From: Clostridia bacterium
GTDB taxonomy: Bacteria; Bacillota; Clostridia; RGIG6154
Direction: 5' to 3'
DNA length: 40,118 nt
Assembly (NCBI GenBank): GCA_017410375.1
Contig: JAFQQW010000056.1
Coordinates: forward strand, 1 to 40,118
The notes beneath the pieces are model-generated. The model worked only from the letters and a program-made list of their open reading frames with translations. It did no database searches and had not been told where the DNA came from. Made by a program: the position numbers and the translations under genes. Below, one piece after another: positions 10,941 to 40,118 of the stretch (within the stretch, counting starts at the first letter, position 1; every line of letters starts with the position of its first letter).

Positions 10941-10975
10941 AAAAAGGGCTGTAATAAATTTACAGCCCCTTTTTA
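10941..10975. terminator. Bidirectional terminator
   Basis: A 9-base stem (10946-10954 with 10960-10968) is flanked by an A-run on the left and a T-run on the right, so it can stop transcripts from both sides. It directly abuts the stop codon of the minus-strand GH106-like gene. Confidence 0.85.
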
Positions 10976-13675
10976 TTAAAGTGAAGTTTCTACAAAACAA
11001 TAACCATCGTTCCATGTACTGCCCTGATTCCATGTGTAATTCCATATGCATCGTTCTTTATAGAAGATGCCGGGACCAACAGAATAACTTTCCCCCACCT
11101 GCAGATGATGCGGACCTAAAAGGTTGCGTAGGTTGTTAATCAATGTGATTTCAACCTCGGTTTCTCCTGAAACACCGAAATCTGCTAGAGAAATTTTATT
11201 GTCGGACAGAACAACTTTTGTTTTATCACCAATTGTAATACGAATGGCGTTTACGCCTTTTTTATCCAAGAGGATATAGGGATTTTCACCGGAGATGTTT
11301 ATCTTTCCGTATACAGTCAATTCACCGCTGAAGAACGGGAAGCCCTGTTGTTCAATGTTCGAAAGGGTAATCTCTTTCTTAGGTTCTTCAATGGTAAACG
11401 AACCGGTATACCGAACCGCTTTTTTATCAAGCTTTTCCCACGTTCCATCTGTCCCCACAGAAAAATCACCTACAAGGTAAATGGATTCAATTTCCATATC
11501 ATAGCACAGCTTATTTTTTTCACTTTCGAAAATTTTGGATTTCCGGATATTATCATAAACGGTTTGCGACTGCTTGAAATCACAATCAAAGCTGATGGTA
11601 TTCTTGCCTTTTGTAAGATAACGAGCGATGTCTGTTTTGCGGAAAGAAATGTCTCTGAAATAACCCTCATCCTTAAACGCAATTTCTTTGCCGTTAACAG
11701 CAATGGTAAAGTTTTCGGGTGTTTCGCAAACAAGAAACAGTTTTTCTGGAATGTAATTTATCTCAACAAAATAATCCTGATGGATTTGTACCGGACATTC
11801 TTTTTTGTTGGCGCGCTCTAAAATATTTAAAACATAACCGTTTTTCTCCTGCAGTTCGCCATCAAAATAGTAATCACAGAAATCAAGTGTGATAGAATTC
11901 TCCACTGCCCCGCCCAATTTAAATGGACCGCTTAACTCAATTTTTGTTTCTTTTTGCGGTGCATGAGGTGCGTTTTCAGATTCAATCACCATGAGGCTTC
12001 CCCAGGGTTCAAATTCATAGGGCGAAGCAAAGTTTTCCAGTTCTCCTGTCTCAAGATTTACTTTTTTGCCTTTTACATAAATTTCCGCATTCTTTCTGTC
12101 GGGACTTGTGTTGACAAAGAAATGAACTTTTTGTTCCTTGCTTTCTCGGTAGGTGTATGTTAGTGTCTTGTCGTTTGTAACAGAATTTTCGGTAAATGAG
12201 TCTGTGCTGTCAAGTACAATACCACCGTTTGCAATAAATTCTGAAAGAAGTTTTTCGGTTGACGGAAGCAACACTTCACATCCCGCCTTAACAACATACT
12301 TATAGCTCTGACAGCCGATTTCAAAACGGTCACCGTTAACCTTGCCATGGCGTTCAATAATAGTTTCGTCCCCTAAATGGAACGGAAGATGCTTTTCTTC
12401 AAGACCTTTCACAATTGCCTTAAACCGTTCAAACATTTCGTCGATTCCTTTGTTTTCATTTGCATCATAAACAGTCCACGCTGTCGTTTGAGGGTGTAAA
12501 ACTAAAATTTCAGGTTTAATTTCTCCCTCGGTTAAAATCATGCCTTCGCGGGACATTGCATCCACAAACTGCTTATATTCACTCCACCAAGGCTGTTGGC
12601 AATACATCGCAGGCGGATAGTCTCTTTTTCGGATACCACGGTTGGAATAGCCTTCTAAGTGCTGGCAAAGTAAATTAACACCGCGAACAGTCTGCCATTC
12701 ATAGATGCCTTTCAACTCTTCAAAACTTACGTTATGTCCACAAAGTGCAAATGTTTCGGAAAGGACTTGTTTTTTGCCAAGCTGTTGGGCAACAGAGCCG
12801 AGCTGATGAATCATAACACCATCCTGAATCTTTCTTCCTAACCAATCCATACCCGGCACGTGGAAATATTCATAATGCGGCATACATGCACCGTTAGATG
12901 CAAGTTGAGAACCGAATGTGTTTTCACAAACAAGATGACCGGTAAATTTTAAATTACGTGCATCACACCAGTCATAAATTTGTTTCATAAAAGCTTCAGA
13001 GAACAAATCGGTTACCATTTTCCAGAATTTAACGCGAACTTCTTTATATCCATCCACTTCAAAGAATAAAGCATCCAGATGATCCAGAAGATTCTCGTTA
13101 TAACGGGCTTTATAGCTTTCTTCCATTACAAAGCTCCATGGAATACCGTTACGGGAAATCTGCGGTTCATCAGTGAAAAAACCTTCAATCTGATTTTTAT
13201 ACTTCTCATAATAAGGCTCGTATGTACATTTGATAAACTCTTTGATAACCTTTTTATCGAGTGTATCTACATAAAAAGGATTGACATCGTAATAAAAATA
13301 CAAGTCCCCGATTTGACAAATAGCTGTATCCTTATGCTCAAATTCTTTTTCCCAGCGAAGGTATTTTTGTTGGAAATCTAATCCCATACCATTTACGATA
13401 CCACTACCGAAACCACTGGGCCAGCCGTTTTCATCGTATGCCCACGCACGCATTCCAAGCTCATCTGCTTTTTCGACCGAAGCGGAGACGTTTTCAAACC
13501 ATTCTTCTCCCATATATTCGGTCTGCAAACCGCCACGAGCATGCATAAAGAAACCGCCGATGCCCACATCATGCATTTTCTGAATCTGGGATTTGGTTTC
13601 TTCAACATTTAATTTTTCGTTCCAACTCCAGAACGGAATGGGACGGTATTTTTGAGGTACATTTTTATAATCCAT
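10976..13675 (-). CDS. GH106-like glycoside hydrolase (alpha-L-rhamnosidase-related), cytosolic
   Basis: About 899 residues with no signal peptide. Family-type motifs: RPIPFWSWNEKL near the N-terminus; GIGGFFMHARGGL; AYDENGWPSGFGSG (about 79-92); EGFFTDEPQIS, a candidate acidic active-site strand; and a long signature VLSETFALCGHNVSFEE through RGVNLLCQH to RKRDYPPAMYCQQPWW. The C-terminal third is beta-rich with galactose-binding-like stretches. These features fit the Glyco_hydro_106 group, whose characterised members remove alpha-linked rhamnose; many relatives are untested. Start choice: the ATG at 13675 is 8 bases after AGAAGG, whereas the ATG at 13684 would be only 3-4 bases away. No promoter is evident; it lies just past the pyr operon terminator. 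Confidence 0.75.
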   Translation of the reverse strand: MDYKNVPQKYRPIPFWSWNEKLNVEETKSQIQKMHDVGIGGFFMHARGGLQTEYMGEEWFENVSASVEKADELGMRAWAYDENGWPSGFGSGIVNGMGLDFQQKYLRWEKEFEHKDTAICQIGDLYFYYDVNPFYVDTLDKKVIKEFIKCTYEPYYEKYKNQIEGFFTDEPQISRNGIPWSFVMEESYKARYNENLLDHLDALFFEVDGYKEVRVKFWKMVTDLFSEAFMKQIYDWCDARNLKFTGHLVCENTFGSQLASNGACMPHYEYFHVPGMDWLGRKIQDGVMIHQLGSVAQQLGKKQVLSETFALCGHNVSFEELKGIYEWQTVRGVNLLCQHLEGYSNRGIRKRDYPPAMYCQQPWWSEYKQFVDAMSREGMILTEGEIKPEILVLHPQTTAWTVYDANENKGIDEMFERFKAIVKGLEEKHLPFHLGDETIIERHGKVNGDRFEIGCQSYKYVVKAGCEVLLPSTEKLLSEFIANGGIVLDSTDSFTENSVTNDKTLTYTYRESKEQKVHFFVNTSPDRKNAEIYVKGKKVNLETGELENFASPYEFEPWGSLMVIESENAPHAPQKETKIELSGPFKLGGAVENSITLDFCDYYFDGELQEKNGYVLNILERANKKECPVQIHQDYFVEINYIPEKLFLVCETPENFTIAVNGKEIAFKDEGYFRDISFRKTDIARYLTKGKNTISFDCDFKQSQTVYDNIRKSKIFESEKNKLCYDMEIESIYLVGDFSVGTDGTWEKLDKKAVRYTGSFTIEEPKKEITLSNIEQQGFPFFSGELTVYGKINISGENPYILLDKKGVNAIRITIGDKTKVVLSDNKISLADFGVSGETEVEITLINNLRNLLGPHHLQVGESYSVGPGIFYKERCIWNYTWNQGSTWNDGYCFVETSL

Positions 13676-13701
13676 AGCATTCACCTTCTTCTTATTTTTT
13701 A

Positions 13702-23823: not shown

Positions 23824-26800
23824 TTAAAACGAAAGAGGTTCACAAAGCGGATGGAATATGGGCGTTTGTAAAACTTTTACGCCCCATATATAAATCTTTT
23901 GGTTTTTCTTCGCCTGACCTACATAAGGCTCTAAAATCGTTACGACTTTTTCATCGCTTGCGGAAATGTCTGTCACTTTCCCGTTTGTATCATAAGATAC
24001 GGTCATAATTTTAACAACAGAAACCCCTTCAGAACGAATAATATAGCGATTATTTGATGCTTTCACTGCAAACGCACCGTCACCCAGCCTTGCGTTACCT
24101 AAATAAAGCTTCGCGGCATCGTAATCGGAAACACCTGCGCCTGCACCACCCACTTTATATGGATTCAAATAGGTAGTTCCATTCTTTTCAACGGTGTATC
24201 CCTCTACCTTATAGGAACTCCAGGGAATTTCTTTCGTTCTGAAAATGGGATTTCCGTTTGAATCGGTCTGATCCGAATAAAAAATATCCACACTCTCATA
24301 GACAACCTTTGAGTTTTTCAAATCCAGATTAGCAGAAACATTTGTTGTCCAATTGTCTCCGGTTGGTGTCAGAACACCGAATAATTTCGCATTATTTAAT
24401 TTCGCGTAATCGCCGTCAGAAACATATGGTGTTAAGAAAGAAGCAGAAAGTGTGTACTTACCAAAACCATTGGTTGCTTTTTCTATTTTGAGCAAAGACG
24501 AAGTGTTACTTGAAATCGGTACAGGTTTAAATGTAGATATACCGGGACGTATGGTGGTGATAACGTCCCCATCTCTTACGGGGGTCTGATCAAGATTATA
24601 GCACGGTACACCATTAACAAGCACTGCTACATTTTCCATTTCGCCGCCAAGCTTTAATGTCGATGGATCATAAGCTCCGCCTTTATATGTCAAAACAAGG
24701 TTACTGAGGCGATATGAATTGATTTCAGAGTTAAGTTCCATCCCCTCCGGAGGCAAAAGATTCAAAACTGTAGTCGTTTCCCGCATTTCATTGCTCATAA
24801 CAATGCTGTCAATCGGAATAACAGTTCCTTCTGTTTTGTGCACAAGTTCGCCTGTTACATAAAGACCGTTCAGACTATTTTCATAGATATCAAATTCGAA
24901 CGCGTTTTGATTTACTACGGCACGAATACTGTCTCCGTATGTTCCGATATTGTTAACGGGTGCCGCAACGGATTTAAAGTCATCCGGCACATCAGCAATA
25001 CCGTATCTGAAATCAAGCGGTTTGGCAAGAGCCAAAGCATCAAATACAGTTGCATATGAAATAGCATCACCAAGCTCATCGTGTGTAGATACATTGTTAT
25101 ATCCTTCAAGACCACTATTATAACCTAAAATTCTGGCGTGATTGGGTTTAACCGTAAGTTTTTCGCCGTTGACAGATACATTTACAGGCTCGCTTGTCAG
25201 TTGAGTCGTGGTTGCATTCTGCATTGCATTTAACTCTGTTTGACTTTTTGGAACATTCAAATGATGCCAGCTGCTATCTGCAAGAGTATCCATTGGGTTT
25301 TGTCCGTTCGGATATGCAGGAACGAGCGCAACAGCAGCCAATCGGTCATACGCACCCAGCTGATTTTGACGCAGAACAAAAGGAACACCTGAGCGAAGTT
25401 CTATCGTGTCACTCCCCTTGCTCCAGTAAAAGCACATGTTCGGATTAGACGTATCGACACCGTTCCGCGTGGTAAAATTAATTTTGGTATCATTGATTGT
25501 TACAGAGGATTCGCGTCCACCGGGACTTGATTCCATGTTGATTCTTAGTCCGTAAACGTAATACTTTCCTGTTTTTAAAGGTGTGAACACACCAAAATTA
25601 CCGTGAGCATTGTAATACAAATCTAACTTTGAAACAGTTCTTAAAGCACCGGGCTGTACATCATTTAATGTAAGGTTTGCGAGTGCCACAAAGGTTGTGC
25701 CTTTTGGAAAACCGTATTCCCAATTGTCGGTATTTGCTTCCTCGGATTCGCTGATTGGTTTAAGGGTTCCGTTGCCTAATGTCTTGGTTTTCCCTGCAGT
25801 ATCAGTAACCTTAACAGAGAAGTCGAAGGTTTTTGCGGTCGCAGGCACCTTTACAATGGTTTCGTAAGGATATTCACTGATTGTTTTGGAGTAAGTTTTA
25901 CCTCCATATGTATAGGTGAAGGTTGCTTTTTGTGTAGTGTCTGTCGTTTGTGAAGTATACATATATGCATAGTAATTATCGTCATTGAATTGAATCAGAT
26001 ACGCCTTTCCGTCCGTAAATTCAGCAACGGTCTGCCCTGTATAAGAAGAAGGTGTATATTCTTTAACATAAGAGGGCTTTTTCACATCCGGATGCAACAC
26101 AACCGTTTGAATACCTCTGCCGGGAATTGTTAACGAAAACTTACCGTTGGAAATCTGAACACTGGATTTCTTACCATCTGCATCGTAAAGTGCTGCTGTT
26201 TCAGTGAAAGATGACGCATTAGGCACTTTATTCCCAAGCGCAACGGTTGTTGTCAGCGCTTTTTGACTTTCATTTACAAAAGCAACTGCAAGCACACCGT
26301 CTTTTTTGGCAGGCAAATAGTCCACCTCGACAGAATCAGGCTGTACAATTCCACGGTCAAGCCAAAGCCACATATCATTCTCATCGTAAACTTTGCCGGC
26401 TGCTATACCGTACTGATTGGTATTAAAATACGCATATCCCGAGTTTACAACAGAAGGAAATTCAATATTTTCGTTGGAACGGTACCAGATATTATTTATC
26501 AAAAAGTCCTCAAGTAAAGCCAGGAATACAGGAATATGATGCCAGTAAATCAAATTATAATCGGGGCCGACATAGGGATAATCCGCTTGTTTATCATGTA
26601 ATAAATAACGCTCGCTATAATACCCTGCATAATTTGCATAGCGTCCGATCATCGCATTTCTTGCCTGAGCCAGAAAGAAATCATCACCGGTATATTTTGC
26701 AACACGAAGCATTGTTCCTGCCCACATATTCATGTTGATAGCGTTGCCGTTTCCGGGCGTCATTCTATGTTCGGTGCCAAGACCTGTACGCGCAGGAATC

Positions 26801-29520
26801 CAACCGGGCGCATATTCTTTTTCTAGTTTACTTTCGGATTCGCTTGCTTTTTTGAACACGCCGTAATCGTTACCGATTCTCCATTGCACACCATTGGTAT
26901 GCCAAAACCAGTCCGCATCATCATTCGCCAATGGAATTGATGCTGTTTTTTCAGGTCCTACAGTATAGTTTGTATCTGCATAACCATTCTGATATCCGGT
27001 CGTCCAGACAGAGGTCATGATGTATTTTGCGACCTCGTTTGCACCGTTCAAATATTTGATATCGCCCGTTTGTTCATATGCCAGAGTAAGTGCGTTTAAT
27101 GCAGGAACCGTACTTTCGTACACAAATCCACCAATAGGGGTGAATTTTTTCTGTTCTAAGAGCTGTAAATAGCTATCTGCAACATTGGTAGTATATTTCG
27201 TGTAGCTGTTTACACCGAGCATATCGTTCATAGCAGGTCCGTAGCTTGCTCCGCTGATGCTTCCGCTTGACGCATTTGTTGCATGTTCTAACATAAAAGG
27301 CATTCTGCCCTGCGACATGCGATACAAGCCAACAAAGGTACCGCGGCTGAAAAAGGTAGCCGGCTTCTTAAGCACAGTCGGGGCATTGTTTCCGGTATAA
27401 TTATTGTATTTGGAAGATCTTGTGGAATGAGAAGAATTACGCGTCAATTGAAATGCAATAAGCGGAATTGCTCTTTTATCCAGAATTTCTTCGTTTTCGG
27501 TCAGCATATACCGTTGCATAATTTCAATGTTATTTGCGTTCGAAACAACACCTTCTGCTTCCATATTCGCAAAGCCCATATCCTTTTCGATAAAACCGCT
27601 GTACACATCATCCATTATAAGATCGGTTACGTTATAAATCGCATCATTTAACGATGCATAGTAATTCGTACGGATATCTTTACAGTTAAAAATATCGCGA
27701 GCTACATGCACATAGTTTTCATACCAATCACAATCATTAAAAAGCAATCTATAGGAAAAATTAAAGCTTCCGTTCAAATCAAATTTGCATTGTTTTGTGG
27801 TAAATACAGGTGCAACAAGCTGAGCCCGGGCATTTCCTGTCGGTGAACGGAACATAACACCAAAATCCAAATCCCCGGGACGTGCTACATACTGACGGAC
27901 AGATGTTGGATCTACTGCAATACCTTTTGTAAACGCTTCCGCAGTTCCTTCGTTAAAGGTAAACGTTGCCATGGGTGTAAACATCATATATTCTTCCAGA
28001 ACAACGTCATCTGCAGGGATGTAGTCTTCTACATAATTCATAGGTGCGGTTACGCGGTGGAATGAAGTATCAGAAAAATCATCACCATTAAAATAAACGA
28101 AGGAATAACAGCCTGCAGTTTTCATATTCGCAGAAAATTTCACTTTAGGTTCTTCTGTTAATGTATCAAACGAAAATGTTAAAGTGCCTTTTACGTTTGC
28201 TGATTCCACATCCAAAACAACACTGTTTCCGCTTTTTGTCATATTAAACGGAATCAACCACTCCGGACACCCCATTTCATAATAATTGGATTCATTCACC
28301 AGGGTTATTTCACCATTAAAACCCTGCAATTTTTGCTCTTTGGAAAAAGTGTTGGGCGCAGAGGTCAGTCCGTCCGTAGGCGGACAACCGTCAGCCGTTA
28401 CAGAGGATGTAGCACGAAGAGCCAATACACCCAATTCCTCTCGTCTTCCCTTTACAACTTCCCACGCCCCATTGCGTTTAATAAAAATTTCGTTCTGCAC
28501 TACACTGCCTTTATCGCCGGTACCCTTATAAAAAACAATTTTAAATTTATCGTTTTCTATAGTTTGAGTAGCAGTTGCAGCAATCTCTTTTTTCGCCCAA
28601 CCGGGAAAATTGGAAGGGATAATCGAATACGTTTCAGTCGGTCTAACCATATAGGTTGAAAACTCACCGACATCATTACTGGGAACATAATCGGGATTGT
28701 TGGTCAAAAGAACACCTTCACACCGGGCATAAGCAGTAGAACTTTTTATCAGAATTTCATGCTCGCCCACCGATAAGCTGAAAGTTCCGGCATTTTCCCA
28801 TTTATATCCGTTTTCACCATGTTTTCCAAAATAAGAAGCCGCATATGTACCGTCAATACCTGCCTGAAAATAGCGGGTTCCCGGTCTGTCACCCGGGAAA
28901 TCTTTTGCACGGACATACATGGTATATGTACCTGCTTTTTTTATGTTAAGTTTAGCCTTTGCAACCTGTTTCGCTTCGGTTGAACGAATTGCGGTAGAGC
29001 CATCTGCTTTCCAACCGCCAAGTGTGTAAAAGTTTGGCGTGGTGATATAATGCGTATAAAGTGAATAGGACTGTTTGTCGGTAATATACATGGTTTTGTC
29101 CGTGGAATTGTATACCGCATTACAATTCAAAACCGCAGAAAGCACCTGACGTTCCCCATAGAGTACACCTTTGTAAACAATAGGAGTTGTCCCCAGATTC
29201 ACCGCTTTCCCCTGCATATTGGCTATAGGATTTTCAGCACAGATGGTTGTTTTTGCCCCATCCTTTGAAAAAACCGAAAGCGTCTGTCCGTCCTCGTGCC
29301 ATGTCACGGTTGCATTCAGCTTTTCAAAGCATTGTTTTAACGGAACATAGGCTTTCCCGTCAATCAGATATGCTCCGGGACTTAATGTTACTGTTTTCCC
29401 GTTCAAAACAACAGGAATTGCCGTTACAGTTGCAGCCGAGACCGATTCATAGACTGAACATGTACACAAGCAAATAAACAGCATAAAATATAAACATATA
29501 AATGCTTTGATTTTTTTCAT
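23824..29520 (-). CDS. Giant secreted multidomain protein, candidate carbohydrate-active enzyme (paralogue 2)
   Basis: 1898 residues. A signal peptide runs to about VSA (residue 29). Modules: Cu_amine_oxidN1 about 33-148; beta module A about 155-280 (PGTRYF, FGKHGENGYKW); beta-rich region about 310-600; helical toroid-like region about 600-1025 with DIRTNYYASLNDAIYN, ARNAMIGRYANYAGYYSERY and IYWHHIP (991-997); beta domain about 1040-1145 with YDENDMWLWLDRGIV; then about 750 residues of beta-rich C-terminal modules without recognised family, ending in a module (about 1790-1898) with VSYDTNGKV and IYIWGVKVL-x-P. The core closely matches the protein at 29707 throughout and the protein at 3705 over the enzyme-like part. 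It would act outside the cell or on the wall. The activity is unknown, and no cell-wall sorting signal (LPxTG) or SLH repeats are visible. Confidence 0.8.
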   Translation of the reverse strand: MKKIKAFICLYFMLFICLCTCSVYESVSAATVTAIPVVLNGKTVTLSPGAYLIDGKAYVPLKQCFEKLNATVTWHEDGQTLSVFSKDGAKTTICAENPIANMQGKAVNLGTTPIVYKGVLYGERQVLSAVLNCNAVYNSTDKTMYITDKQSYSLYTHYITTPNFYTLGGWKADGSTAIRSTEAKQVAKAKLNIKKAGTYTMYVRAKDFPGDRPGTRYFQAGIDGTYAASYFGKHGENGYKWENAGTFSLSVGEHEILIKSSTAYARCEGVLLTNNPDYVPSNDVGEFSTYMVRPTETYSIIPSNFPGWAKKEIAATATQTIENDKFKIVFYKGTGDKGSVVQNEIFIKRNGAWEVVKGRREELGVLALRATSSVTADGCPPTDGLTSAPNTFSKEQKLQGFNGEITLVNESNYYEMGCPEWLIPFNMTKSGNSVVLDVESANVKGTLTFSFDTLTEEPKVKFSANMKTAGCYSFVYFNGDDFSDTSFHRVTAPMNYVEDYIPADDVVLEEYMMFTPMATFTFNEGTAEAFTKGIAVDPTSVRQYVARPGDLDFGVMFRSPTGNARAQLVAPVFTTKQCKFDLNGSFNFSYRLLFNDCDWYENYVHVARDIFNCKDIRTNYYASLNDAIYNVTDLIMDDVYSGFIEKDMGFANMEAEGVVSNANNIEIMQRYMLTENEEILDKRAIPLIAFQLTRNSSHSTRSSKYNNYTGNNAPTVLKKPATFFSRGTFVGLYRMSQGRMPFMLEHATNASSGSISGASYGPAMNDMLGVNSYTKYTTNVADSYLQLLEQKKFTPIGGFVYESTVPALNALTLAYEQTGDIKYLNGANEVAKYIMTSVWTTGYQNGYADTNYTVGPEKTASIPLANDDADWFWHTNGVQWRIGNDYGVFKKASESESKLEKEYAPGWIPARTGLGTEHRMTPGNGNAINMNMWAGTMLRVAKYTGDDFFLAQARNAMIGRYANYAGYYSERYLLHDKQADYPYVGPDYNLIYWHHIPVFLALLEDFLINNIWYRSNENIEFPSVVNSGYAYFNTNQYGIAAGKVYDENDMWLWLDRGIVQPDSVEVDYLPAKKDGVLAVAFVNESQKALTTTVALGNKVPNASSFTETAALYDADGKKSSVQISNGKFSLTIPGRGIQTVVLHPDVKKPSYVKEYTPSSYTGQTVAEFTDGKAYLIQFNDDNYYAYMYTSQTTDTTQKATFTYTYGGKTYSKTISEYPYETIVKVPATAKTFDFSVKVTDTAGKTKTLGNGTLKPISESEEANTDNWEYGFPKGTTFVALANLTLNDVQPGALRTVSKLDLYYNAHGNFGVFTPLKTGKYYVYGLRINMESSPGGRESSVTINDTKINFTTRNGVDTSNPNMCFYWSKGSDTIELRSGVPFVLRQNQLGAYDRLAAVALVPAYPNGQNPMDTLADSSWHHLNVPKSQTELNAMQNATTTQLTSEPVNVSVNGEKLTVKPNHARILGYNSGLEGYNNVSTHDELGDAISYATVFDALALAKPLDFRYGIADVPDDFKSVAAPVNNIGTYGDSIRAVVNQNAFEFDIYENSLNGLYVTGELVHKTEGTVIPIDSIVMSNEMRETTTVLNLLPPEGMELNSEINSYRLSNLVLTYKGGAYDPSTLKLGGEMENVAVLVNGVPCYNLDQTPVRDGDVITTIRPGISTFKPVPISSNTSSLLKIEKATNGFGKYTLSASFLTPYVSDGDYAKLNNAKLFGVLTPTGDNWTTNVSANLDLKNSKVVYESVDIFYSDQTDSNGNPIFRTKEIPWSSYKVEGYTVEKNGTTYLNPYKVGGAGAGVSDYDAAKLYLGNARLGDGAFAVKASNNRYIIRSEGVSVVKIMTVSYDTNGKVTDISASDEKVVTILEPYVGQAKKNQKIYIWGVKVLQTPIFHPLCEPLSF

Positions 29521-29706: not shown

Positions 29707-32700
29707 TTAAAATTCAAGAGGTTCACAAAGAGGCTTAAAGGTTGGCTCCTGTAACACCTTTGCTCCCCATATAAAGATTTTTTGATTTTCTTTCGCATGA
29801 CCAATATAGGGTGCGTTTACAAACGCAAACAGGTCATCAGTCGAAGCAATACTTTCCACTTTACCGTTTTCGTCATACGATAAGGTTATAATTTTAAAAA
29901 CAACAAACCCGTTAGTTGAAACAATGAAACGGTTGTTGGATGCCTTGGTTACAAAAACACCGCTGACAAAGTCTTGTCCGCCAAGGAAAAGAGATGACGA
30001 AGCATAGTCGGCTGCACCACCGCCTGCACCTCCAACCTTATAAGGATTTAAGTATACCTTTCCATCTTTTTCAACAAGGTAGTCCTCTGCGGTATAGTTG
30101 TTGTAAGCAACTTTGTCTGCCATGAAGTACGGATTCCCGTTCTCATCAGTACCATCCATCAGCGTCAGCTCTGCATTTTCAAAAACAACCACAGAATCCT
30201 GCAAATCAAGTTCCTCTGAAACATTTTTAGCCCAGTTTTCGCCAATGGGTTTCATAAGACCAAAAAGTCTTGTGCCGTTTAATGCAGAAAAATCTGATTT
30301 GTGTGGTAAAGCAGACAATGCATCTGCCGAAAGTAAATATATGCCGTTGCCGTTTTCTCCTTCGGTTATGCCTAACAAAGCAGAATTCTCTTCCGAAAGT
30401 CCGGGAAGCGGAATCGGTTTGAAGTTGGACATATTTGTTTTTACGATTTTAATAACATCACCGTTTTTGATGGGCATCCGGTCGGGATCATAGCACGGAA
30501 CACCGTTAAGAAGAACAGTGATGCTACCAAAGCCTTCACCCGGAGTATATTTATTTATGTCGAAACTTTCAAATCCGCTGTACGAAATCACAAGATTTGT
30601 CAGCGTATAACTGTTTACGGAACTCAAAACAAACCCTTCTGGCGGTTCAACATTCAAAACCGTTCCTGTGGTTCGAAGTTCATTACTCATAACAAGCCCA
30701 TCCAATTTAACAGTTGTTCCGTCTGTTTTGTGAACCAAATCACCCGTAACACGCAAGCCTGTTAAGCTGTTTTCATATACATCAAACGGAAAATATGTGA
30801 GTGAAACAGATACGCGGACGGATGACCCATATGTTCCGATGCTGTTTTTGGCAGGCGACATACTTGTAAAGGTTTCCGGCACATCCGGCGAACCATAATA
30901 TGTGTCAGACATAGGTGCAACCGCAAGCGCATCAAACACTGTAGCATAGCTTATGGCATCTCCTGCCGCATTATACAAAGAAGCCATGCCCCGACCTGTA
31001 ACACCGCTGTTTATCCCTTTAATACGAGCATTACCCGCCTTAACACTCAATACTTCTCCGTTAACGGTTACAGAATATGTATTATTGTCACCAATCTTGC
31101 CTGCAGAAGCTTTTTCCCATTGGTTTAAGCTTTCCTGATTTTCAGGAATATTCTGACTTTTCCAAAACGGATTCGGAATGCATAGCATGGGATTGGTTCC
31201 ATCCGAAAGCGCAGGCACAAGTGCAACACCCGCAAGGCGGTCGTAATCTCCGAGTTTATTCTGTCTGAGAACAAACGGAACGCCCGCCTCCAGCTCTACC
31301 GCATCGGTACCAAGACACCAGAAGAAACTGAAATTAGGAATAGAAGAATCTGCACCTTCATTTGTCGTAAAATCCACACGCATATCATTAATGTTTATCG
31401 AAGACTGTCGGTTCCCACCAGTCGTGGAGTTATAGGAGCGCAGACCGTAAACATAATATTTGCCTGACTTTTTTGGTGTAAAGAAACCAAAATTGCCCTG
31501 TCCGTTCTGGTATACGGTAAAACCGGCAACAGATGCCTGCGACCCGGGCTGCACCTCATTTTTTGTAAGGTTACCTACAGATATGAACATGGTATCTTTC
31601 GGGAAGCCGTTCACCCACTCTACATCATCCAAAACATTTGACGCAGATAAAGACTTTAAGCTACCTCCGCCAAGGCTGTCGGTCGTGCCATCCTGCTCAC
31701 TTGTTTTAACTGAAAACTCAAATTCTGTTGCTGTAGCTGGAACCTTAACTATTGTTTCAAAAGGGTATTCGTTTACAGTTTTTGAATAGGTTTTTCCGTT
31801 ATATTGATAAGTAAAGGTTGCGCTCTTTGTTGTATCTTTCATACGGTTGGTGTACATGTATGCATAGAAATTCTCGTCATTAAACTGCAACAGATATGCT
31901 TTGCCGTCCGTAAACGTCTGAACCGTTTCACCCAAATAGCTGAGCGGTTCATATTCCCGAACATATCCGGGCTTTTTAACATCCGGATGTAACACCACAG
32001 ACAAAATACCTCTTGCAGGAATTGTAAGTGTGAATTTGCCGTTTGTAATCTGAACAGTAGATTTATTTCCGTCTGCATCATAAAGTGTAGCTTTTTCGCT
32101 GTAAGAAGATGCGTTCGGGATTTTTTCGCCTAATGTAATGGTGGTGGTAAGCGCATCACTGCCCTCGTTTACAAATGCAACGCCTAGCACACCGTCTTTT
32201 TTGGCAGGCAAATAGTCTACCTCGACAGAATCAGGCTGTACAATTCCACGATCCAACCACAACCACATGTCTTCTTCATCATAAAATTTACCAGAATCAA
32301 AGCCATATTGATTGGAGTCAAAGTACGCGTATCCCGACTGGAGCACAGACGGAAATTCGATATTTGCATTAGAACGGTACCAGATGTTGTTGATCAAAAA
32401 GTCCTCCAGCATACCTAAAAAGACGGGAATATGATGCCAGTAAATCAAATTGTAGTCAGGCCCGTCGTAAGGGTAATTTGCTTTTTTGTCATGCAAAAGA
32501 TACCGTTCGCTGTAATAACCGGAATAGTTCGCATAGCGACCAATCATGGCATTTCTGGCTTGAGTTAAGAAAAATTCGTCGCCTGTGTATTTAGCAAGAC
32601 GCATCATAGTGCCTGCCCACATATTCATATGAATTGCATTGGCATTCGCCGGAGTCATTCTGTGTTCTGTACCAAGACCTGCTCTTGCAGGAACCCATCC

Positions 32701-35412
32701 GGGCGCTGTTTCTTTGGTAATCTTATTTTTTGCTTCGCTTGCTTTTGTAACCACTCCGAAATCATTACCGATTCGCCATTGCACACCATCTTCATAGTAG
32801 AACCATTCTGCTGCATCGTTCGCAAGACGAAGGGCTGAGGTGGATTCGGGATCAACCGTGTAATCGGTGGTTGCATAATCGTTCTGATAACCGGTTGTCC
32901 AGGTGGTAGTCATAATGTATTGCGCTACTTTTTCCGCCCCGTCCAGATATTTTTGTTCACCCGTTTCTTCATAAGCTGAAACGAGTACATTTAAAGCAGG
33001 AACCGTATTTGAATAAACAAAGCCACCCACAGGTGCAAAGCTGTTGTTTTTGAGCTGATTTAAATAATTATCTGCCACAGATGTTACTTTAGAATCGAAT
33101 GTATCCGTTTTCAGCAAGTCGTTCATGGCTGTTCCGTACGAAGATGCGCTGATACCTCCACCTGACGCCGCTGATGCTGCATGTTGCAACATAAAAGGCA
33201 TTCTACCCTGAGACATTCTGTAGAAACCGATATAGGAGCCACCGCTAAAACCTTTGCCGGGGCCTTTTAAAGGTGTTGGAACGTTAATTCCTGTGTAGCT
33301 GTTATATTTTGAAGTTCTTGTAAAATGTGTACCACTTCTTGAAAGCATAAACGCAATAAGCGGAATCGCACGTTTGTCTAAAATTTCTTCATTTTCGGTA
33401 AGCATGTAGCGTTGCATCACTTCAAGATTGTTAGATATGGTTGCTACACCGCTTGCCTCCATGTTGGCAAACGCCATATCCTTTTCAATAAAACCGCTGT
33501 ACACATCGTCCATAATAAGGTCTGTGGTGTTATAGATTGCGTCATTCAGAGACGAGAAATAATTTGTACGTAAGTCTACGCAGTTAAAGATATCCTGTGC
33601 TACATGTACATAGTTTTCATACCAGTCTGCATCGTTAAACAGCAATCGATACGAGAAGCTGTACACTTCATCCGCATCAAATTTACACTGTTCTGTGGTA
33701 AACACAGGCGCAACAAGCTGCGCGCGTGCATTGCCGGTCGGAGTACGGAACATAACACCGTAATCCAGATCCCCGGGACGCGCTACATACTGACGCACAC
33801 AGGATGGATCTACCGCAATACCTTTTGTAAACGCCTGACTTGTCCCCTCATTAAAGGTGAAGGTTGCCATGGGTGTAAACATCATATATTCCTCAAGAAC
33901 AATATCGTCAGCAGGAATATAGTTTTGCGTATAGTTAAAAGGAGCTGTTACACGGTCAAAATCTGTATCGGAAAATTCGTCGCCGTTGAAATAGATAAAT
34001 GAGTAACAGCCTGCTGTTTTGGTTCTGATTTTAAAGGTTACTTTGGGTTCTTCGGTTAAACTGTCAAAGAAAAATGTCATAGAACCGGACAAATTCTCAG
34101 AATTAAGTGTCAGCTTGACATTACTGCCGTTTTTCACCATATCAGACGGGATAAGCCACTCAGGACGGCCCATTTCATAATAGCTTTTTTCGTTATAAAT
34201 TGTAACAGCACCGTCAAAGCCCTCAAGAGTCTGCTCTGCGGTGGTAACAGACGGAAACCCGCTTAAACTTTCAACCGGCGGACAGCCTTGTGCAACGGTT
34301 GTAGACAAGGCGCGAAGCGCGAGAACACCAAGTTCTTCGTTTCTGCCCTTGACCGCTACCCACGCCCCATCACGTTTCATGAAAATTTCATTCTGTACAA
34401 GAGCGCCTTTATCCCCTTCGCCTTTGTAAAACACAATTTTAAATTTATCGTTTGAAATGGTCTCTGTTGCAGTTTCACTGATATCTTTAGTTGCCCAGCG
34501 CGGAAAATTGGCAGGAATCAGAGAGTTTTGCGCAGAAGTTCTTTGTGAATATCTCGAATACTCGTTAAAATCATCGGTCGGAACATAAGTGGTATCATTT
34601 GTTAAGATAATGCCCTGACAACGGGCAAAAGCCGTATTGCTGTAAAGCATAATTTCGTGTTCGCCGGCATCCAACGAAAATGAGCCGGCACTTTCCCACT
34701 TGTACCCGTCCGCACCGTGTTTTCCAAAAACATTCGAGGAATATGTACCGTCAACTGCCATTTTAAAATGTCTGGTTCCGGGTCTGTCATACTTAAAATC
34801 TTTTGAGAGCACATATACAGTGTAAGTAGATGCCTTTTCTGTTTTAAATTTCGCCTTCGCCGTTTGCCTTGAATCGGTGGAACGCAAAGCATTGGTACCC
34901 TCGAAAATCCAACCGCCACAATCATAAAAATTAGAAGCACCAACATAAACAATATGCTTGCTGTAATCCTGTGTATCATTAATGCTGATGACACCGGTAG
35001 AAAAATTGTATGTCGTCGTACAGCTCAGTACAGTAGAAAGAATATTCAACTGTCCATATAAAGTGTCGTTCAACATAACAGGCTTAGACGGAAGGAGTGT
35101 TGCTGTGCCGTGTATATTGGCAGTTAAACACTCCGCCGATAGTGTTGTTTTTATACCATCTTTGGAGTAAACGGACAGCGTTTCATTTTCAGCATGCCAG
35201 GTAACAGTTGCATTTAATAATTCAAAAATTTGTTTTAGAGGCACCAACACCTCCCCTGTTTCAGACAATACCGGAGATGGTGAAACAGATATTTGTTTAC
35301 CGTTGAATTCCACCCTCATCGACAATGCCGAAGTTTCCGCTGAAAAAAATGTTGGAAGCATCACAAACAGCATCAATGCTGCCAAAAGTAAGGCTGTGAT
35401 TTTTATTTTCAT
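29707..35412 (-). CDS. Giant secreted multidomain protein, candidate carbohydrate-active enzyme (paralogue 3)
   Basis: 1901 residues. A signal peptide runs to about FSA (residue 24). The architecture is the same as the protein at 23824: Cu_amine_oxidN1 about 32-146; beta module A about 153-278 (PGTRHF, FGKHGADGYKW); beta-rich region; helical toroid-like region with DLRTNYFSSLNDAIYN and IYWHHIP (990-996); beta domain with YDEEDMWLWLDRGIV; long beta-rich C-terminus; and the same final module (SYDENGKV, then IFIWGAKVLQEP). The two are tandem duplicates on one strand, 186 bases apart, with most core residues identical. The C-terminal modules and the N-terminal 150 residues differ more than the core. 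No polymer-specific motif that I recognise is present. Confidence 0.8.
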   Translation of the reverse strand: MKIKITALLLAALMLFVMLPTFFSAETSALSMRVEFNGKQISVSPSPVLSETGEVLVPLKQIFELLNATVTWHAENETLSVYSKDGIKTTLSAECLTANIHGTATLLPSKPVMLNDTLYGQLNILSTVLSCTTTYNFSTGVISINDTQDYSKHIVYVGASNFYDCGGWIFEGTNALRSTDSRQTAKAKFKTEKASTYTVYVLSKDFKYDRPGTRHFKMAVDGTYSSNVFGKHGADGYKWESAGSFSLDAGEHEIMLYSNTAFARCQGIILTNDTTYVPTDDFNEYSRYSQRTSAQNSLIPANFPRWATKDISETATETISNDKFKIVFYKGEGDKGALVQNEIFMKRDGAWVAVKGRNEELGVLALRALSTTVAQGCPPVESLSGFPSVTTAEQTLEGFDGAVTIYNEKSYYEMGRPEWLIPSDMVKNGSNVKLTLNSENLSGSMTFFFDSLTEEPKVTFKIRTKTAGCYSFIYFNGDEFSDTDFDRVTAPFNYTQNYIPADDIVLEEYMMFTPMATFTFNEGTSQAFTKGIAVDPSCVRQYVARPGDLDYGVMFRTPTGNARAQLVAPVFTTEQCKFDADEVYSFSYRLLFNDADWYENYVHVAQDIFNCVDLRTNYFSSLNDAIYNTTDLIMDDVYSGFIEKDMAFANMEASGVATISNNLEVMQRYMLTENEEILDKRAIPLIAFMLSRSGTHFTRTSKYNSYTGINVPTPLKGPGKGFSGGSYIGFYRMSQGRMPFMLQHAASAASGGGISASSYGTAMNDLLKTDTFDSKVTSVADNYLNQLKNNSFAPVGGFVYSNTVPALNVLVSAYEETGEQKYLDGAEKVAQYIMTTTWTTGYQNDYATTDYTVDPESTSALRLANDAAEWFYYEDGVQWRIGNDFGVVTKASEAKNKITKETAPGWVPARAGLGTEHRMTPANANAIHMNMWAGTMMRLAKYTGDEFFLTQARNAMIGRYANYSGYYSERYLLHDKKANYPYDGPDYNLIYWHHIPVFLGMLEDFLINNIWYRSNANIEFPSVLQSGYAYFDSNQYGFDSGKFYDEEDMWLWLDRGIVQPDSVEVDYLPAKKDGVLGVAFVNEGSDALTTTITLGEKIPNASSYSEKATLYDADGNKSTVQITNGKFTLTIPARGILSVVLHPDVKKPGYVREYEPLSYLGETVQTFTDGKAYLLQFNDENFYAYMYTNRMKDTTKSATFTYQYNGKTYSKTVNEYPFETIVKVPATATEFEFSVKTSEQDGTTDSLGGGSLKSLSASNVLDDVEWVNGFPKDTMFISVGNLTKNEVQPGSQASVAGFTVYQNGQGNFGFFTPKKSGKYYVYGLRSYNSTTGGNRQSSININDMRVDFTTNEGADSSIPNFSFFWCLGTDAVELEAGVPFVLRQNKLGDYDRLAGVALVPALSDGTNPMLCIPNPFWKSQNIPENQESLNQWEKASAGKIGDNNTYSVTVNGEVLSVKAGNARIKGINSGVTGRGMASLYNAAGDAISYATVFDALAVAPMSDTYYGSPDVPETFTSMSPAKNSIGTYGSSVRVSVSLTYFPFDVYENSLTGLRVTGDLVHKTDGTTVKLDGLVMSNELRTTGTVLNVEPPEGFVLSSVNSYTLTNLVISYSGFESFDINKYTPGEGFGSITVLLNGVPCYDPDRMPIKNGDVIKIVKTNMSNFKPIPLPGLSEENSALLGITEGENGNGIYLLSADALSALPHKSDFSALNGTRLFGLMKPIGENWAKNVSEELDLQDSVVVFENAELTLMDGTDENGNPYFMADKVAYNNYTAEDYLVEKDGKVYLNPYKVGGAGGGAADYASSSLFLGGQDFVSGVFVTKASNNRFIVSTNGFVVFKIITLSYDENGKVESIASTDDLFAFVNAPYIGHAKENQKIFIWGAKVLQEPTFKPLCEPLEF

Positions 35413-35560: not shown

Positions 35561-35605
35561 TTGACATAATAGCATTTTTGTGCTATATTAAATTAAGAAA
35601 GGAGG
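35561..35605 (+). promoter_or_regulatory. Promoter and RBS of the DUF975 gene
   Basis: TTGACA (35561-35566), 17 bases, TATATT (35584-35589), then AGGAGG (35600-35605), 8 bases before the ATG at 35614. Confidence 0.82.
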
Positions 35606-35613
35606 AAACGTAT

Positions 35614-36231
35614 ATGATTCAGAGAGAGCTTTTAAAAGCAAATGCAAAAGAAAGCATCAAAGGCAATATCGGTACGATATTCGGAATGACTATTATTGTT
35701 TCGCTCATCTCCGCGGTCCTCAATTTTATTCCGACTATTGGTTCAGTTGCTAACACATTTTTTGTGTCACCTGCATTCAATCTCGCATTTGTGGCAATCT
35801 ACTTAAAAATCGCTCGTGGCGGAAAAGTTGTTTTTAGCGAACTATTTGACGGTTTCGCCTATTTCTGGGGTGCTTTCAAGATTTACTTCTTAGTAGGATT
35901 ATTCACACTTTTATGGTCGTTACTCTTCATTGTTCCGGGTATCATCAAAGCATACTCCTACTCAATGGCAATGTACATTTATTCTGAAAATCGCAATATG
36001 GGCGCGCTTGAGGCAATCAACAAATCCAAAGAAATCATGGAAGGTCATAAAATGGATTTGTTTATTTTAGAATTGTCCTTTGCAGGTTGGTTTTTGTTAG
36101 GTGTAATCACTTTCGGTATTGCTTTAATTTATTTTATTCCGTATGCTGAAACAACGTTTGCAAACTTCTACCTTGCAATTTCAGGTCAGCCTATGGAAAA
36201 TGCGACAGTAATTGATGCAGATTTAGTGTGA
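35614..36231 (+). CDS. DUF975-family integral membrane protein
   Basis: 205 residues with about five or six hydrophobic segments. The pattern fits DUF975: an N-terminal amphipathic part (LLKANAKESIKGN), repeated long helices, the central LLFIVPGIIKAYSYSMAMYIYSEN, and ALEAINKSKEIMEGHKMDLF before the last helices. The function is unknown; the family is common in Bacillota membranes. Start choice: the ATG at 35614 follows AGGAGG, and the earlier ATG at 35578 is upstream of the predicted transcript start. It is a single-gene unit flanked by two terminators, and it is the last chromosomal-looking gene before the integrated element. Confidence 0.85.
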   Translation: MIQRELLKANAKESIKGNIGTIFGMTIIVSLISAVLNFIPTIGSVANTFFVSPAFNLAFVAIYLKIARGGKVVFSELFDGFAYFWGAFKIYFLVGLFTLLWSLLFIVPGIIKAYSYSMAMYIYSENRNMGALEAINKSKEIMEGHKMDLFILELSFAGWFLLGVITFGIALIYFIPYAETTFANFYLAISGQPMENATVIDADLV

Positions 36232-36279: not shown

Positions 36280-36286
36280 GTGCAAC

Positions 36287-36314
36287 AAAAAGACCGCCTG
36301 ATAGCGGTCTTTTT
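36287..36314. terminator. Second, bidirectional terminator
   Basis: An 11-base perfect stem (36287-36297 with 36304-36314) with A-run and T-run flanks. Together with the first it shields the DUF975 gene from its right-hand neighbour. Confidence 0.78.
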
Positions 36315-36399
36315 GCTTGTAAGAACCATATGATTTTACTGCCACATCAAATTTTGCTTGATTTCAAGCGGTTTTCAAGGTTTTACCCTTATCAATTCC

Positions 36400-36488
36400 A
36401 AAGGCAGAATAAATCTCTTTTACAAGATTTATTCTACCATAAAACAATATTTTTTACAAGGCCTTTTTGAAAAAAATCTTGTAAAAAG
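36400..36488. other. Candidate end of the integrated element / recombinase attachment region
   Basis: Between the terminators and the recombinase stop codon lie an 11-base inverted repeat (36406-36416 with 36425-36435) and a 10-base one (36451-36460 with 36478-36487). The 9-mer TTTTACAAG occurs at 36418-36426 and 36452-36460 and, inverted, at 36478-36486. Serine integrases lie next to their attachment site, so the boundary is probably here. The exact crossover dinucleotide cannot be seen without the other end. Confidence 0.45.
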
Positions 36489-36510
36489 ACCTGCCGTTAT
36501 TCCGGCAGGT
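36489..36510 (-). terminator. Terminator overlapping the recombinase stop codon
   Basis: An 8-base GC-rich stem (36489-36496 with 36503-36510) is followed by CTTTTT on the minus strand. The stop codon at 36497-36499 is inside the loop. Confidence 0.75.
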
Positions 36511-38101
36511 CAACCTCATAAGGTATGTCGCCGATGAACCATATGGTCATCTTTTTCTTTGACACAACCTCGTATCTTTCGATGATGCTTCGAATGAGAG
36601 GTGTATCAATCTCGCTCACCTTATCTTCCATACCATCAATGGCTTTGAAGATAAGCTTCAGCTTAGATGACTCGGTTGATTTCATCTTTCTCTCCATCTC
36701 ATATTCCTTATTCTCTTGACGCAGTCTTTGCGATTCCATCTTTACTTCCAGACATATTCTGTCAAGCTCGTCCGTTGATATTTCACCGTTAGCATTTTGG
36801 TATATAGCCTCGCGCATTCTGTCGCTCATTAGATTAAGCTTTTCCATATTGGCACTTATCTTTGGCTGTTCGGTATCCCCGAGTAGAGAGGCGATTGAGC
36901 TTTTTAATATGTCCTTTACTCTTTTTCTGCTTGTATATATCGTATTGATGGCTTCGAGCGTAACCTCATTCATATAGTTATTGTTGATGGAAGGAGAATT
37001 CTGACAGCAATCTTGTCCGTTCTGAATTCTGTTTAGGCGCCGCCATACATATTTCTTATCACCGCTACGGGTTTTCCATTCTGTTCGTCTGTACTTGGCA
37101 CCGCATTCGCCACAGAATATTAAGTCGTTGTATGGAAACTTGCCGCTGTATTTTCCATAGCTTTGTTTTTTATCAAACTTTTTGATACATCCACGTCGGC
37201 TAATTTCCTCTTGCACACTGTCGAACAGGTCACGTTCTACGATTGGCGGATGATGGTCTCTGATATAATACTGCGGAGCTTGACCTGTGTTCTTTACCTT
37301 TTTCTTTGAGATTGGATCAAGAGTTACTGTCTTTGAGGTCAGGACATCACCTGCATACTTTTCATTCTTAAGTATTCTTTCCACTGAGCCGGGCGACCAT
37401 CTTTCTTTACCTCTTGGAGATGGGATTTCTCTTTCGGCAAGTGCATTGACAATTTGTTCTATGCTCATACCTTTTATGAAGCAGTCGAAGATGAATCTGA
37501 CATTGATTGCTTTACCGATTTCTACTGATATGTTTCTTTCTGCATCCTGACTGAAGCCGTATACGCCGTTAAAGTTATAGCAACACTTGCCCTCACGGTA
37601 TCTGTAGCTTCTGCCCATCTTTATGTTTTCACTCATTGACTCACTTTCAGCCTGAGCAAATATGGTATGCAGTGCAATGAACATCTCGGTTGTATAGTTA
37701 AGTGTGTTGATGCCTTCTTTTTCGAATAGCACCCCGACTCCCAAATCCTTAAGTTCTCTGATGCATTGTAAGCTTTCGGCTGTATTTCTTCCGAATCTTG
37801 ATACGGATTTTGTTACTACGAGGTCTAACTTACCCTTTCTGCAATCGTTCATCATTCTCTGAAATTCAGGTCGGTTATATATAGAGGTTCCGCTGATGCC
37901 TTCATCGCCGTATATATCTACATATTTCCAACCTGCCGTTTCTTTAATCATTTTGGTATAGTGTTCAACCTGAGTCTCAAAGCTTTTTGTCTGTTGCTCT
38001 GCCTCGGTGCTGACTCTTGCATAGGCACCGACATTCAGCACTCGCTTTGCACCATGCCCGAAATATGATTTTGTTGCAGGTATTTCGATTACATTTGCCA
38101 T
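36497..38101 (-). CDS. Large serine recombinase, full length (third of three)
   Basis: 534 residues. The resolvase catalytic domain spans about 20-160, with nucleophile S31 in YARVSTEAEQQ and arginines in SVSRFGRN (R102, R105). The recombinase DNA-binding domain is about 175-300 (NGVYGF through WSPGSVERILKNEKYAGD), followed by a zinc ribbon (C330, C333, C365/C366) and a coiled-coil-rich C-terminus, as in large serine integrases. It cuts and rejoins DNA at attachment sites through a covalent seryl link. It starts 2 bases after the stop of the middle gene, whose 3' end carries its GGAGTG ribosome binding site, so expression is coupled. It is the gene nearest the presumed element boundary. Confidence 0.92.
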   Translation of the reverse strand: MANVIEIPATKSYFGHGAKRVLNVGAYARVSTEAEQQTKSFETQVEHYTKMIKETAGWKYVDIYGDEGISGTSIYNRPEFQRMMNDCRKGKLDLVVTKSVSRFGRNTAESLQCIRELKDLGVGVLFEKEGINTLNYTTEMFIALHTIFAQAESESMSENIKMGRSYRYREGKCCYNFNGVYGFSQDAERNISVEIGKAINVRFIFDCFIKGMSIEQIVNALAEREIPSPRGKERWSPGSVERILKNEKYAGDVLTSKTVTLDPISKKKVKNTGQAPQYYIRDHHPPIVERDLFDSVQEEISRRGCIKKFDKKQSYGKYSGKFPYNDLIFCGECGAKYRRTEWKTRSGDKKYVWRRLNRIQNGQDCCQNSPSINNNYMNEVTLEAINTIYTSRKRVKDILKSSIASLLGDTEQPKISANMEKLNLMSDRMREAIYQNANGEISTDELDRICLEVKMESQRLRQENKEYEMERKMKSTESSKLKLIFKAIDGMEDKVSEIDTPLIRSIIERYEVVSKKKMTIWFIGDIPYEVDLPE

Positions 38102-38103
38102 TC

Positions 38104-38967
38104 TTAATTCACACTCCTTGTTATTAATTTTCCATTAGTAAGCAGTATAGAAAGCTCTTCCTGACCGCCTACATAGAATTTTGATATAATTTTCTGCATA
38201 AGCGGAAGATGAGGCTCTGTAAGTATCCCATACTTGCAAAGCTCTTTTTTTATCCTTTCGGTAACTGCACTCATATCTGTTTTGATACTGTTTCGGAATT
38301 TGATTTTTGCAAGCTCGTATATGTCTGCAAGCACTTCATCCTTATCATATTCCGTCAGCATTTTTATGTAGATATCGTTTGCCATATCGTCTGTCAGCTC
38401 ATCATCGGGAATTGCGGTTATAACGGGTTCGTCTGCAAGGCTTAAATCGTCTGCAATTTTGTTAAGCAATTCCGTTATGAGATTTACAAGTCGATTCTCT
38501 TTAACGGATTTTGCTGGGCATACGGAATTGGTACATTTATATGCCACAGACCTATTCTCGCCATAGCATTGATTCTGCCTTTTTATCGGTGAACTGCATA
38601 TCGGGCACTCCGAATGAGTCCGCAGGAAGTTATCAAGCTCTGCTTTTTCGGGCGGTTTATTTACGACTTTTGAAAGCCTTGTTTTGTTCGCCTTGTTATA
38701 GAGCTTTTCTTCTATGATTTGCGGATAACCGTTTCTGCCGATATATTTATTGTTTTCAATTATCCGTTTTACCATATTTTTATTCCATTTGTCAGAATCA
38801 ATGTTGTATCTGATTCCGCTTAAGGTAAATCTTTCGGCAATCTGACTGTATGATTTTCCTGCCGCATACAGTGTAAAGGCCGCCTTTACAAGTTCTGCCT
38901 CAGTTTCTTCAACACAAAGTTTGCCGTCAGCTATTTTGTAGCCGAATGCAAGGTAACGGTTTGCCAT
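38104..38967 (-). CDS. Serine-recombinase-like protein lacking the catalytic domain (second of three)
   Basis: 287 residues. It begins directly with the DNA-binding recombinase domain (YLAFGYKIADGKL, then SYSQIAERFTLSG and VKRIIENNKYIGRNGYP), followed by a zinc ribbon (ECPICSSPIKRQ, then YKCTNSVCPAKS) and a helical C-terminus. The about 140-residue resolvase domain with its serine and arginines is absent. This is not a frameshift remnant: the ATG follows AGGAGGTG at the end of the gene before it, directly after that gene's stop. It should bind DNA but not cut it, and may act as a partner or directionality subunit for its neighbours. That role is inference. Confidence 0.8.
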   Translation of the reverse strand: MANRYLAFGYKIADGKLCVEETEAELVKAAFTLYAAGKSYSQIAERFTLSGIRYNIDSDKWNKNMVKRIIENNKYIGRNGYPQIIEEKLYNKANKTRLSKVVNKPPEKAELDNFLRTHSECPICSSPIKRQNQCYGENRSVAYKCTNSVCPAKSVKENRLVNLITELLNKIADDLSLADEPVITAIPDDELTDDMANDIYIKMLTEYDKDEVLADIYELAKIKFRNSIKTDMSAVTERIKKELCKYGILTEPHLPLMQKIISKFYVGGQEELSILLTNGKLITRSVN

Positions 38968-40118
38968 TTATAACACCTCCTTTTTGCTAACCTCAAGCCC
39001 CATTCCGTTTATTAGGATAAAGGTTATTATTTCATTATCTGCTTCAATTCTGCTTACAAGATTTTTGAAACTCTCAGCATCGAATTTGCCTATTGCACAA
39101 GCCGATTCCATTTCTCTTATGATTTTTCTTGTCTTTGAGATAATGTCATCATATCGGTTGTTGTGCAGTATGGTATTTTTCTTTTTGCGAAGGTCCATTG
39201 TCTGTTTATCAAAGCGGTTAAGCTCCTGAATATAGAAAGCAGGCTCTATCAGCTCCTGACTCTTTAGTCTTCGGAGCGATAAAACCTGCTCTGTATTCTG
39301 TGCTATTTGCATGTTGATATCAGCAATTCTATCTTGCTCTGCCTTGTTTATCTTCATAGCCTCTACCTGTGTTAAGAACGGGAGAAGGATATGCTCATAA
39401 TTTGCTTTCAGCTTGTTATACATTTGAACAAATGCCTTTTTAAGCATTTCTTCGCTTACAGGCATTGCCTGACATTTGTCTGTACCTTTATCGTGAGTTC
39501 TGCATACCCATGTGTCTGTACCGTTTTTATGTCGGTAAGTTGAACCGCAGTGCCTGCAATGTATTTTCTTTGCGAAGATACTTGCACTTTCGCGGCTTTC
39601 CTTGGCATGCTTTTCACGCCTTGTCTGCATAAGCTCGGCAGCTTTGTCAAAGTCTTCCGCACTTACTATGGGAATATTGGCATTCTCTGCATAATACATC
39701 GGCAATTCGCCTGTGTTCTTCTTTTTCTTATACGGAAATCCTGTTTTAAAGGATTTCTGGAACAGGGCACCGCCTTTGTATCTTGGGTTATTTATGATAT
39801 AGCTGACACTTTGCGGTGTCCAATGCACCTTGCCGTACTTATTGGGAATTTTATCTCGCATAAGTCCATCGGCAATTTTGCTTGTACCGCTTCCTGACAG
39901 GTATTCGGCAAATATTCGTTTGATAACCTCGGCTTGTTCTTCGTTAACCTCGAATTCAGTGCCGTTTAATGTATAACCGATTGGAGGGTTGCTTTGAACA
40001 AATGTACCCATCTTCATTCTCTGGCGGTTTGCCATTCTGCCGTTTTCAGCAGTAGAGATTGACTCCTGTTCTGCCATTGCTGCTTTTACAGATATCATTG
40101 TAAAGTCAGCAGGCTTTC
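38968..40118 (-). CDS. Large serine recombinase, partial, N-terminus beyond window (first of three)
   Basis: The frame stays open to the window edge, so the ATG at 40098 is internal; the residues before it (KPADFT) fit the end of a resolvase domain. Visible parts are the long-helix remnant (AAMAEQESISTAENGRMAN), the recombinase DNA-binding domain (NPPIGYTLNG, then WTPQSVSYIINNPRYKGG), a zinc ribbon (HCRHCGSTY, then WVCRTHDKGTDKC), and a coiled-coil C-terminus ending in FILINGMGLEVSKK. The catalytic serine must lie outside the window. The stop codon directly abuts the ATG of the middle gene. Confidence 0.9.
   Translation of the reverse strand, partial: KPADFTMISVKAAMAEQESISTAENGRMANRQRMKMGTFVQSNPPIGYTLNGTEFEVNEEQAEVIKRIFAEYLSGSGTSKIADGLMRDKIPNKYGKVHWTPQSVSYIINNPRYKGGALFQKSFKTGFPYKKKKNTGELPMYYAENANIPIVSAEDFDKAAELMQTRREKHAKESRESASIFAKKIHCRHCGSTYRHKNGTDTWVCRTHDKGTDKCQAMPVSEEMLKKAFVQMYNKLKANYEHILLPFLTQVEAMKINKAEQDRIADINMQIAQNTEQVLSLRRLKSQELIEPAFYIQELNRFDKQTMDLRKKKNTILHNNRYDDIISKTRKIIREMESACAIGKFDAESFKNLVSRIEADNEIITFILINGMGLEVSKKEVL

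Follow-up and report, generated by a model that had tools for sequence, protein, structure and literature searches.

Organization of the recombinase operon

The window, which is the whole stretch of DNA analysed here, is an entire contig of 40,118 bp. Three serine-recombinase genes (A, M and C) lie on its minus strand, the first of them cut by the contig end. Their positions and those of the neighbouring features are as follows.

38968–40116 (listed to 40118), minus strand: gene A, first of the three recombinases; its last 382 aa are visible, the 5′ part with the catalytic domain being off the contig end
38976–38982, minus strand: Shine-Dalgarno sequence AAGGAGG of gene M, inside the 3′ end of gene A, read from the sequence
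38104–38967, minus strand: gene M, middle gene; 287 aa, with RD, zinc ribbon and a short helical arm, without Resolvase domain
38113–38119, minus strand: Shine-Dalgarno sequence AAGGAGT of gene C, read from the sequence
36497–38101, minus strand: gene C, third of the three; a complete large serine recombinase of 534 aa, whose catalytic motif is YARVS
36488–36511, minus strand: terminator-like hairpin at the operon end
36431–36459, minus strand: outward promoter TTGTAA-17-TAGAAT, with TG before the -10 box; found at the same place in 8/8 related element ends
36318–36424, minus strand: non-coding stretch of about 107 nt, a candidate small RNA or else a candidate extended arm for integrase binding
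36318–36343, minus strand: element end GGCAGTAAAATCATATGGTTCTTACA, half of attL; the homology with locus L050 ends here and the motif recurs at other ends
36284–36317, minus strand: terminator hairpin on the host side, abutting the element end
35578–36231, plus strand: DUF975 membrane protein gene in the host flank (ORF and Pfam)

Open reading frames and coordinates agree with the original prediction of three serine-recombinase genes on one strand with gaps of 0 and 2 bp: the TAA codon of gene A abuts the ATG of gene M, and 2 bp separate M from C. The good translation signals claimed for the middle gene are also present, with AAGGAGG upstream of M. The description as a three-recombinase operon holds for the genes and their gaps, but the contig breaks off within gene A and, the window being a whole contig, the catalytic domain of that gene lies out of view. 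The visible part of A begins right after the expected place of this domain and matches the Pfam families Recombinase and Zn_ribbon. A 95%-identical relative at locus L050 (MAG SIG432, from another family of the same class) shares 93.9% DNA identity with the window over 3.8 kb; all three of its genes are complete, and its gene A (10859–12481) encodes a full catalytic recombinase (513–540 aa).

Gene C contains Resolvase, Recombinase and Zn_ribbon domains. In gene M, Pfam recognized Recombinase (PF07508, E 5e-13) and weakly matching zinc ribbons, and the search found no Resolvase domain. The Resolvase domain with its catalytic serine is thus present in C and in the homologues of A and absent from M, as had been proposed for a middle gene that keeps its DNA-binding and zinc domains.

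The middle protein resembles a free-standing integrase C-terminal domain

The AF2 model of M (pLDDT 84.6) shows the RD, the zinc ribbon and arm helices of 14–18 aa. These are about half as long as the arm helices in the model of C (27–33 aa; pLDDT 74), so that normal arm-arm contacts may be out of reach for M. Its likeness to known structures was assessed by sequence-profile comparison, which matched M to the SPbeta integrase (9dxh, E 6e-14) and, over residues 7–271, to the C-terminal domain of the A118 (LI) integrase (4kis, E 5e-7); no match to a catalytic domain was obtained in this search. By these models and profiles, M appears to be a C-terminal domain whose arm is shorter than the long coiled-coil arm inserted in the zinc domain of large serine recombinases.

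4kis is a construct of the A118 integrase without its catalytic domain, crystallized on a whole 25-bp attP half-site, and the arm of that integrase has been proposed to act in site pairing and in locking attL/attR (PMC3783163). Domain order is alike in 4kis and M (RD, zinc ribbon, helical arm); 4kis is however an experimental fragment, whereas M occurs naturally as a free-standing protein, its arm being shorter. Since 4kis binds an attP half-site, a protein built like M can bind att DNA without cutting it. By homology, M would bind DNA and contact A or C.

A widespread and fixed gene order

We searched 391 genomes of the class. By hand tally, a stand-alone M of about 287–343 aa occurs in about 21 of them, and 5 further genomes contain a "mini-M" of 138–141 aa that retains the RD only. 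Among class genomes, phages, plasmids and genome_contigs matches, nearly every locus has the order full recombinase, M, full recombinase, the exceptions being loci in which A has decayed or which run into a contig end. The distance between A and M lies between -8 and +3 bp in 22/22 triplets measured. Some copies in which A is decayed or missing (L081, L065) still have M and C, so that the three genes may not be strictly interdependent.

The same order was found outside these genomes, with other cargo and at other sites. The finished Ruminococcus albus (R. albus) plasmid pRUMAL02 carries a full-empty-full triplet with a middle gene of 291 aa, and Erysipelothrix phage phi1605 and Streptococcus phage Javan630 each carry one with a middle gene of 138 aa. 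In all three records the triplet genes are labelled "recombinase" only and the missing domain is unremarked. The triplet family is widespread in gut Clostridia, and the catalytically empty middle gene, although confirmed, is not peculiar to the window: a large family has full-empty-full as its fixed arrangement.

At L123, L124 and L125 the middle gene of the triplet is a mini form of 138 aa, and in L124 the first gene is cut short. These mini-M triplets adjoin mef(A)/msr(D) in phi1605 and ant(6)-Ia in both the E. faecium plasmid pEF0656-3 and Javan630.

The middle gene is ancient and under selection

A tree was built from the C-terminal parts of 105 proteins, drawn from 36 triplets of Clostridia, phages and plasmids; its root is not fixed. 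Each role forms one clade (SH-aLRT 99 for M, 100 for C and 78 for A), and only two role changes are needed, which is the minimum. Subgroups within the A, M and C clades match one another, and pairwise distances are correlated (Spearman 0.67 for A-C, 0.53 for M-C and 0.44 for A-M), with 0/999 permutations giving values as high. With one group per role and subgroups that correspond, the simplest history is a single, probably old loss of the catalytic domain in a common ancestor, the three genes being inherited as a unit thereafter.

The dN/dS ratio of M is 0.113 for window/L050, 0.065 for L071/L080 and 0.054 for L053/L082, compared with 0.07–0.10 for A and C in comparable pairs. M is thus under the same constraint (0.05–0.11) as its catalytic partners. 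Four zinc cysteines (C121, C124, C145 and C150) are invariant in all 27 aligned M proteins, and all 27 keep the motif W-x-KN-x-VK. These comparisons show that M is ancient, under selection and inherited together with A and C, and that its place is always between them. Motifs, dN/dS, tree, AF2 model and profiles support that part of the original proposal in which a cutting-dead partner of DNA-binding type has been kept by selection in a fixed three-gene operon; its sequence fits a possible role in direction as well as one in site choice.

The mobile element and its ends

Homology between the window and L050 ends at about 36300–36318, some 180 bp beyond gene C. Both ends could be delimited in two relatives, L081 (2020–9030, 7.0 kb, with a decayed A) and L084 (4976–12643, 7.7 kb). 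Besides the triplet, both contain a divergent DUF6076 gene and a gene whose product is a small lipoprotein containing a Listeria-Bacteroides repeat; a DUF6076 gene is also present in L050/L079. The end on the operon side has the motif (T)GRCAGTAAAA...TACA and the opposite end is TATCAAAATATGATACGC. The crossover dinucleotide is likely CA.

A tie of the triplet to integrative conjugative elements is not supported for the window's subclade: no conjugation genes were found in the delimited L081 and L084, which contain the lipoprotein, DUF6076 and triplet genes only, and an ICE identity was rejected on that ground. The elements of this subclade have a size of about 7–7.7 kb and a DUF6076 gene, and are not ICEs. 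The rest of the element is absent from the window's own assembly. An empty insertion site was not found in close relatives (the flank of L053 is a repeat), and a scan of viral contigs with the end motifs gave no match.

Several related arrangements were noticed. The contig JAGAUW010000027.1 carries two different triplet elements (L080 and L082) that face each other about 16 kb apart and have similar flanking repeats. In L080, the end motif recurs about 325 bp after gene C and is followed by another hairpin, perhaps as a relic of an earlier insertion. In the window's own genome, a MITE-like element several hundred bp long (G000:C28 23451–23476; L137 about 12019–12477) lies between the tmRNA gene and a terminator; its inverted ends of 26 bp are imperfect and match the end of the triplet element. 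Similar MITE-like elements follow tmRNA in genome G307 and tRNA-Ser in genome G064, and the triplet may mobilise such elements.

Insertion against intrinsic terminators

An intrinsic-terminator hairpin, differing in sequence, lies immediately beyond 13/13 operon-side ends found. These are the ends of the window, L050, L080, L082, L053 and L051, together with seven that were picked up solely through the end motif (L118, L119, L133, L134, L135, L136 and L129). Terminators were called by a fixed rule, that is a start within 30 nt of the end; 13/13 ends have one, whereas in the same DNA the rule applies to 14.7% of non-ORF positions and to 6.6% of positions overall. Because the flanks of L080 and L082 are similar, at least 12 of the 13 ends are independent. 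A match to the end motif in genome G019, with 3 mismatches and no terminator, was excluded as a likely coincidence within coding DNA. At the other element end the same rule finds a terminator in 1/13 cases, and folding energy in 4/13. Terminators at the operon-side end, with no such rule at the other, indicate insertion between a gene and its terminator. The rule is strong for the window's subclade and we do not extend it to other subclades; the comparable end of L068 has no directly adjoining terminator.

A sequence TTGTAA-17-TA[CG]AAT faces outward beyond the operon terminator in 8/8 triplet ends examined, and the distance from the -10 box to the element boundary is 113–114 nt in all 8. The last 100 bp are more similar than gene C in 3/4 pairs (72–80% versus 56–65% identity), the fourth pair being equal at 59%. 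A transcript from this promoter would stop in the host terminator. The candidate RNA shows 12 pairs, 1 of them with a double change, and folding z values of -0.3 to -2.6; Rfam gave no family at gathering score for it, with weak chance matches only. Given this weak folding and covariation signal, a structured RNA and an extended protein-binding arm are equal readings of 36318–36424.

Possible roles of the middle protein

In single serine integrases, DNA binding, cutting and direction control reside in one chain. With moderate confidence, we favour a reading in which the window triplet would be the integration module of a mobile element ending at 36318 and would encode a heteromeric integrase, M being its obligatory third subunit, which would only bind DNA and would set site choice and/or direction. 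A and C would act as the catalytic large serine recombinases and M, as a stand-alone C-terminal domain, would be produced by translation coupled to theirs. M would be placed on an att half-site or else on an additional arm site, and contacts of its zinc ribbon and helical arm with A and C would restrict synapsis to the correct pair of sites. M would thereby take over the specificity or directionality task that a single integrase performs with its own C-terminal domain and an RDF. In the window's subclade, the product would be insertion directly upstream of intrinsic terminators. This mechanism relies mainly on the 4kis precedent; the step under the control of M may be site choice, synapsis or direction.

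Alternatively, M could be a built-in RDF that binds A or C on attL/attR, frees the arm-arm lock and permits excision. The delimited L081 and L084 have no separate RDF-like gene, and M is a zinc-ribbon/arm protein, made of the part of large serine recombinases on which RDFs are proposed to act. RDFs known so far are however small and unrelated to integrases (e.g. GirX), and M keeps its RD and DNA-contact motifs, which would be needless for an arm binder; we therefore regard this role as possible but doubtful. M could also act as a brake, a dominant-negative DNA binder on half-sites or on its own promoter that limits transposition. It is a catalysis-free paralogue that has probably retained DNA binding, and its place in the operon allows a tunable dose. 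But a pure inhibitor need not be so conserved and co-inherited with A and C, and direct translational coupling, giving similar doses, fits a subunit better, so that we consider a brake unlikely.

A further and more speculative proposal, to which we give little credence, is that these are terminator-seeking elements: the heteromeric integrase with its cutting-dead subunit would insert exactly at the foot of intrinsic terminators, the host terminator would complete a small RNA from the outward promoter, at a constant promoter-boundary distance of 113–114 nt, and this RNA and/or M would help to choose the target. Finally, the idea that M results from recombinase decay, or from an artefact of assembly or frameshifting, raised by a metagenome-style contig that cuts gene A at its end, has practically no chance of being right, being refuted by dN/dS of about 0.1 or less, by the tree, and by intact copies in dozens of genomes, including the finished plasmid pRUMAL02, and in phage records.

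If M is the third subunit, the triplet has turned the binding module into a separate protein that seems to be obligatory, and its part in site choice or direction is testable by gene removal. A recombinase that naturally prefers terminator-flanking DNA would be a gentle insertion tool.

Comparison with known multi-recombinase systems

Streptococcal ICEs carry three tandem co-oriented serine recombinases that fall into position-specific groups and were read as one ancestral triplet (Ambroset et al. 2016, PMC4701971). The window shares the three tandem co-oriented genes. In that description all the streptococcal integrases have a Resolvase domain and the ICEs insert in mutT, traG or hsdM (PMC4701971), whereas M has no Resolvase domain; and, unlike the streptococcal ICEs, the delimited relatives L081 and L084 have no linked conjugation module; none is in view in the window either, which breaks off within gene A. 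CcrA and CcrB of SCCmec are likewise two different large serine recombinases of one operon that act together, but CcrA is itself catalytic and there is no third subunit. The best NCBIfam matches are CcrA for M and CcrB for A and C, with scores (44.6, 131.6 and 132.7 bits) far below the CcrA/CcrB/CcrC cut-offs of 700–900. Three recombinases are also reported in gin (PMC5595907) and in prophage 1207.3 (PMC4260502). Among open papers, we found none that describes a conserved member lacking catalysis or a link between terminators and serine-recombinase insertion.

The window's own genome has further serine-recombinase genes, a tandem pair on contig C66 (L127, G000:C66) and partial genes at L126 (G000:C61) and L128 (G000:C9). 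Elsewhere in the window, two neighbouring genes (23824–29520 and 29707–35412) encode secreted proteins of about 1,900 aa each, in which only a copper-amine-oxidase N-like domain was recognized. GH127- and GH106-like genes lie nearby (3705–8609 and 10976–13684), as in a polysaccharide-use locus.
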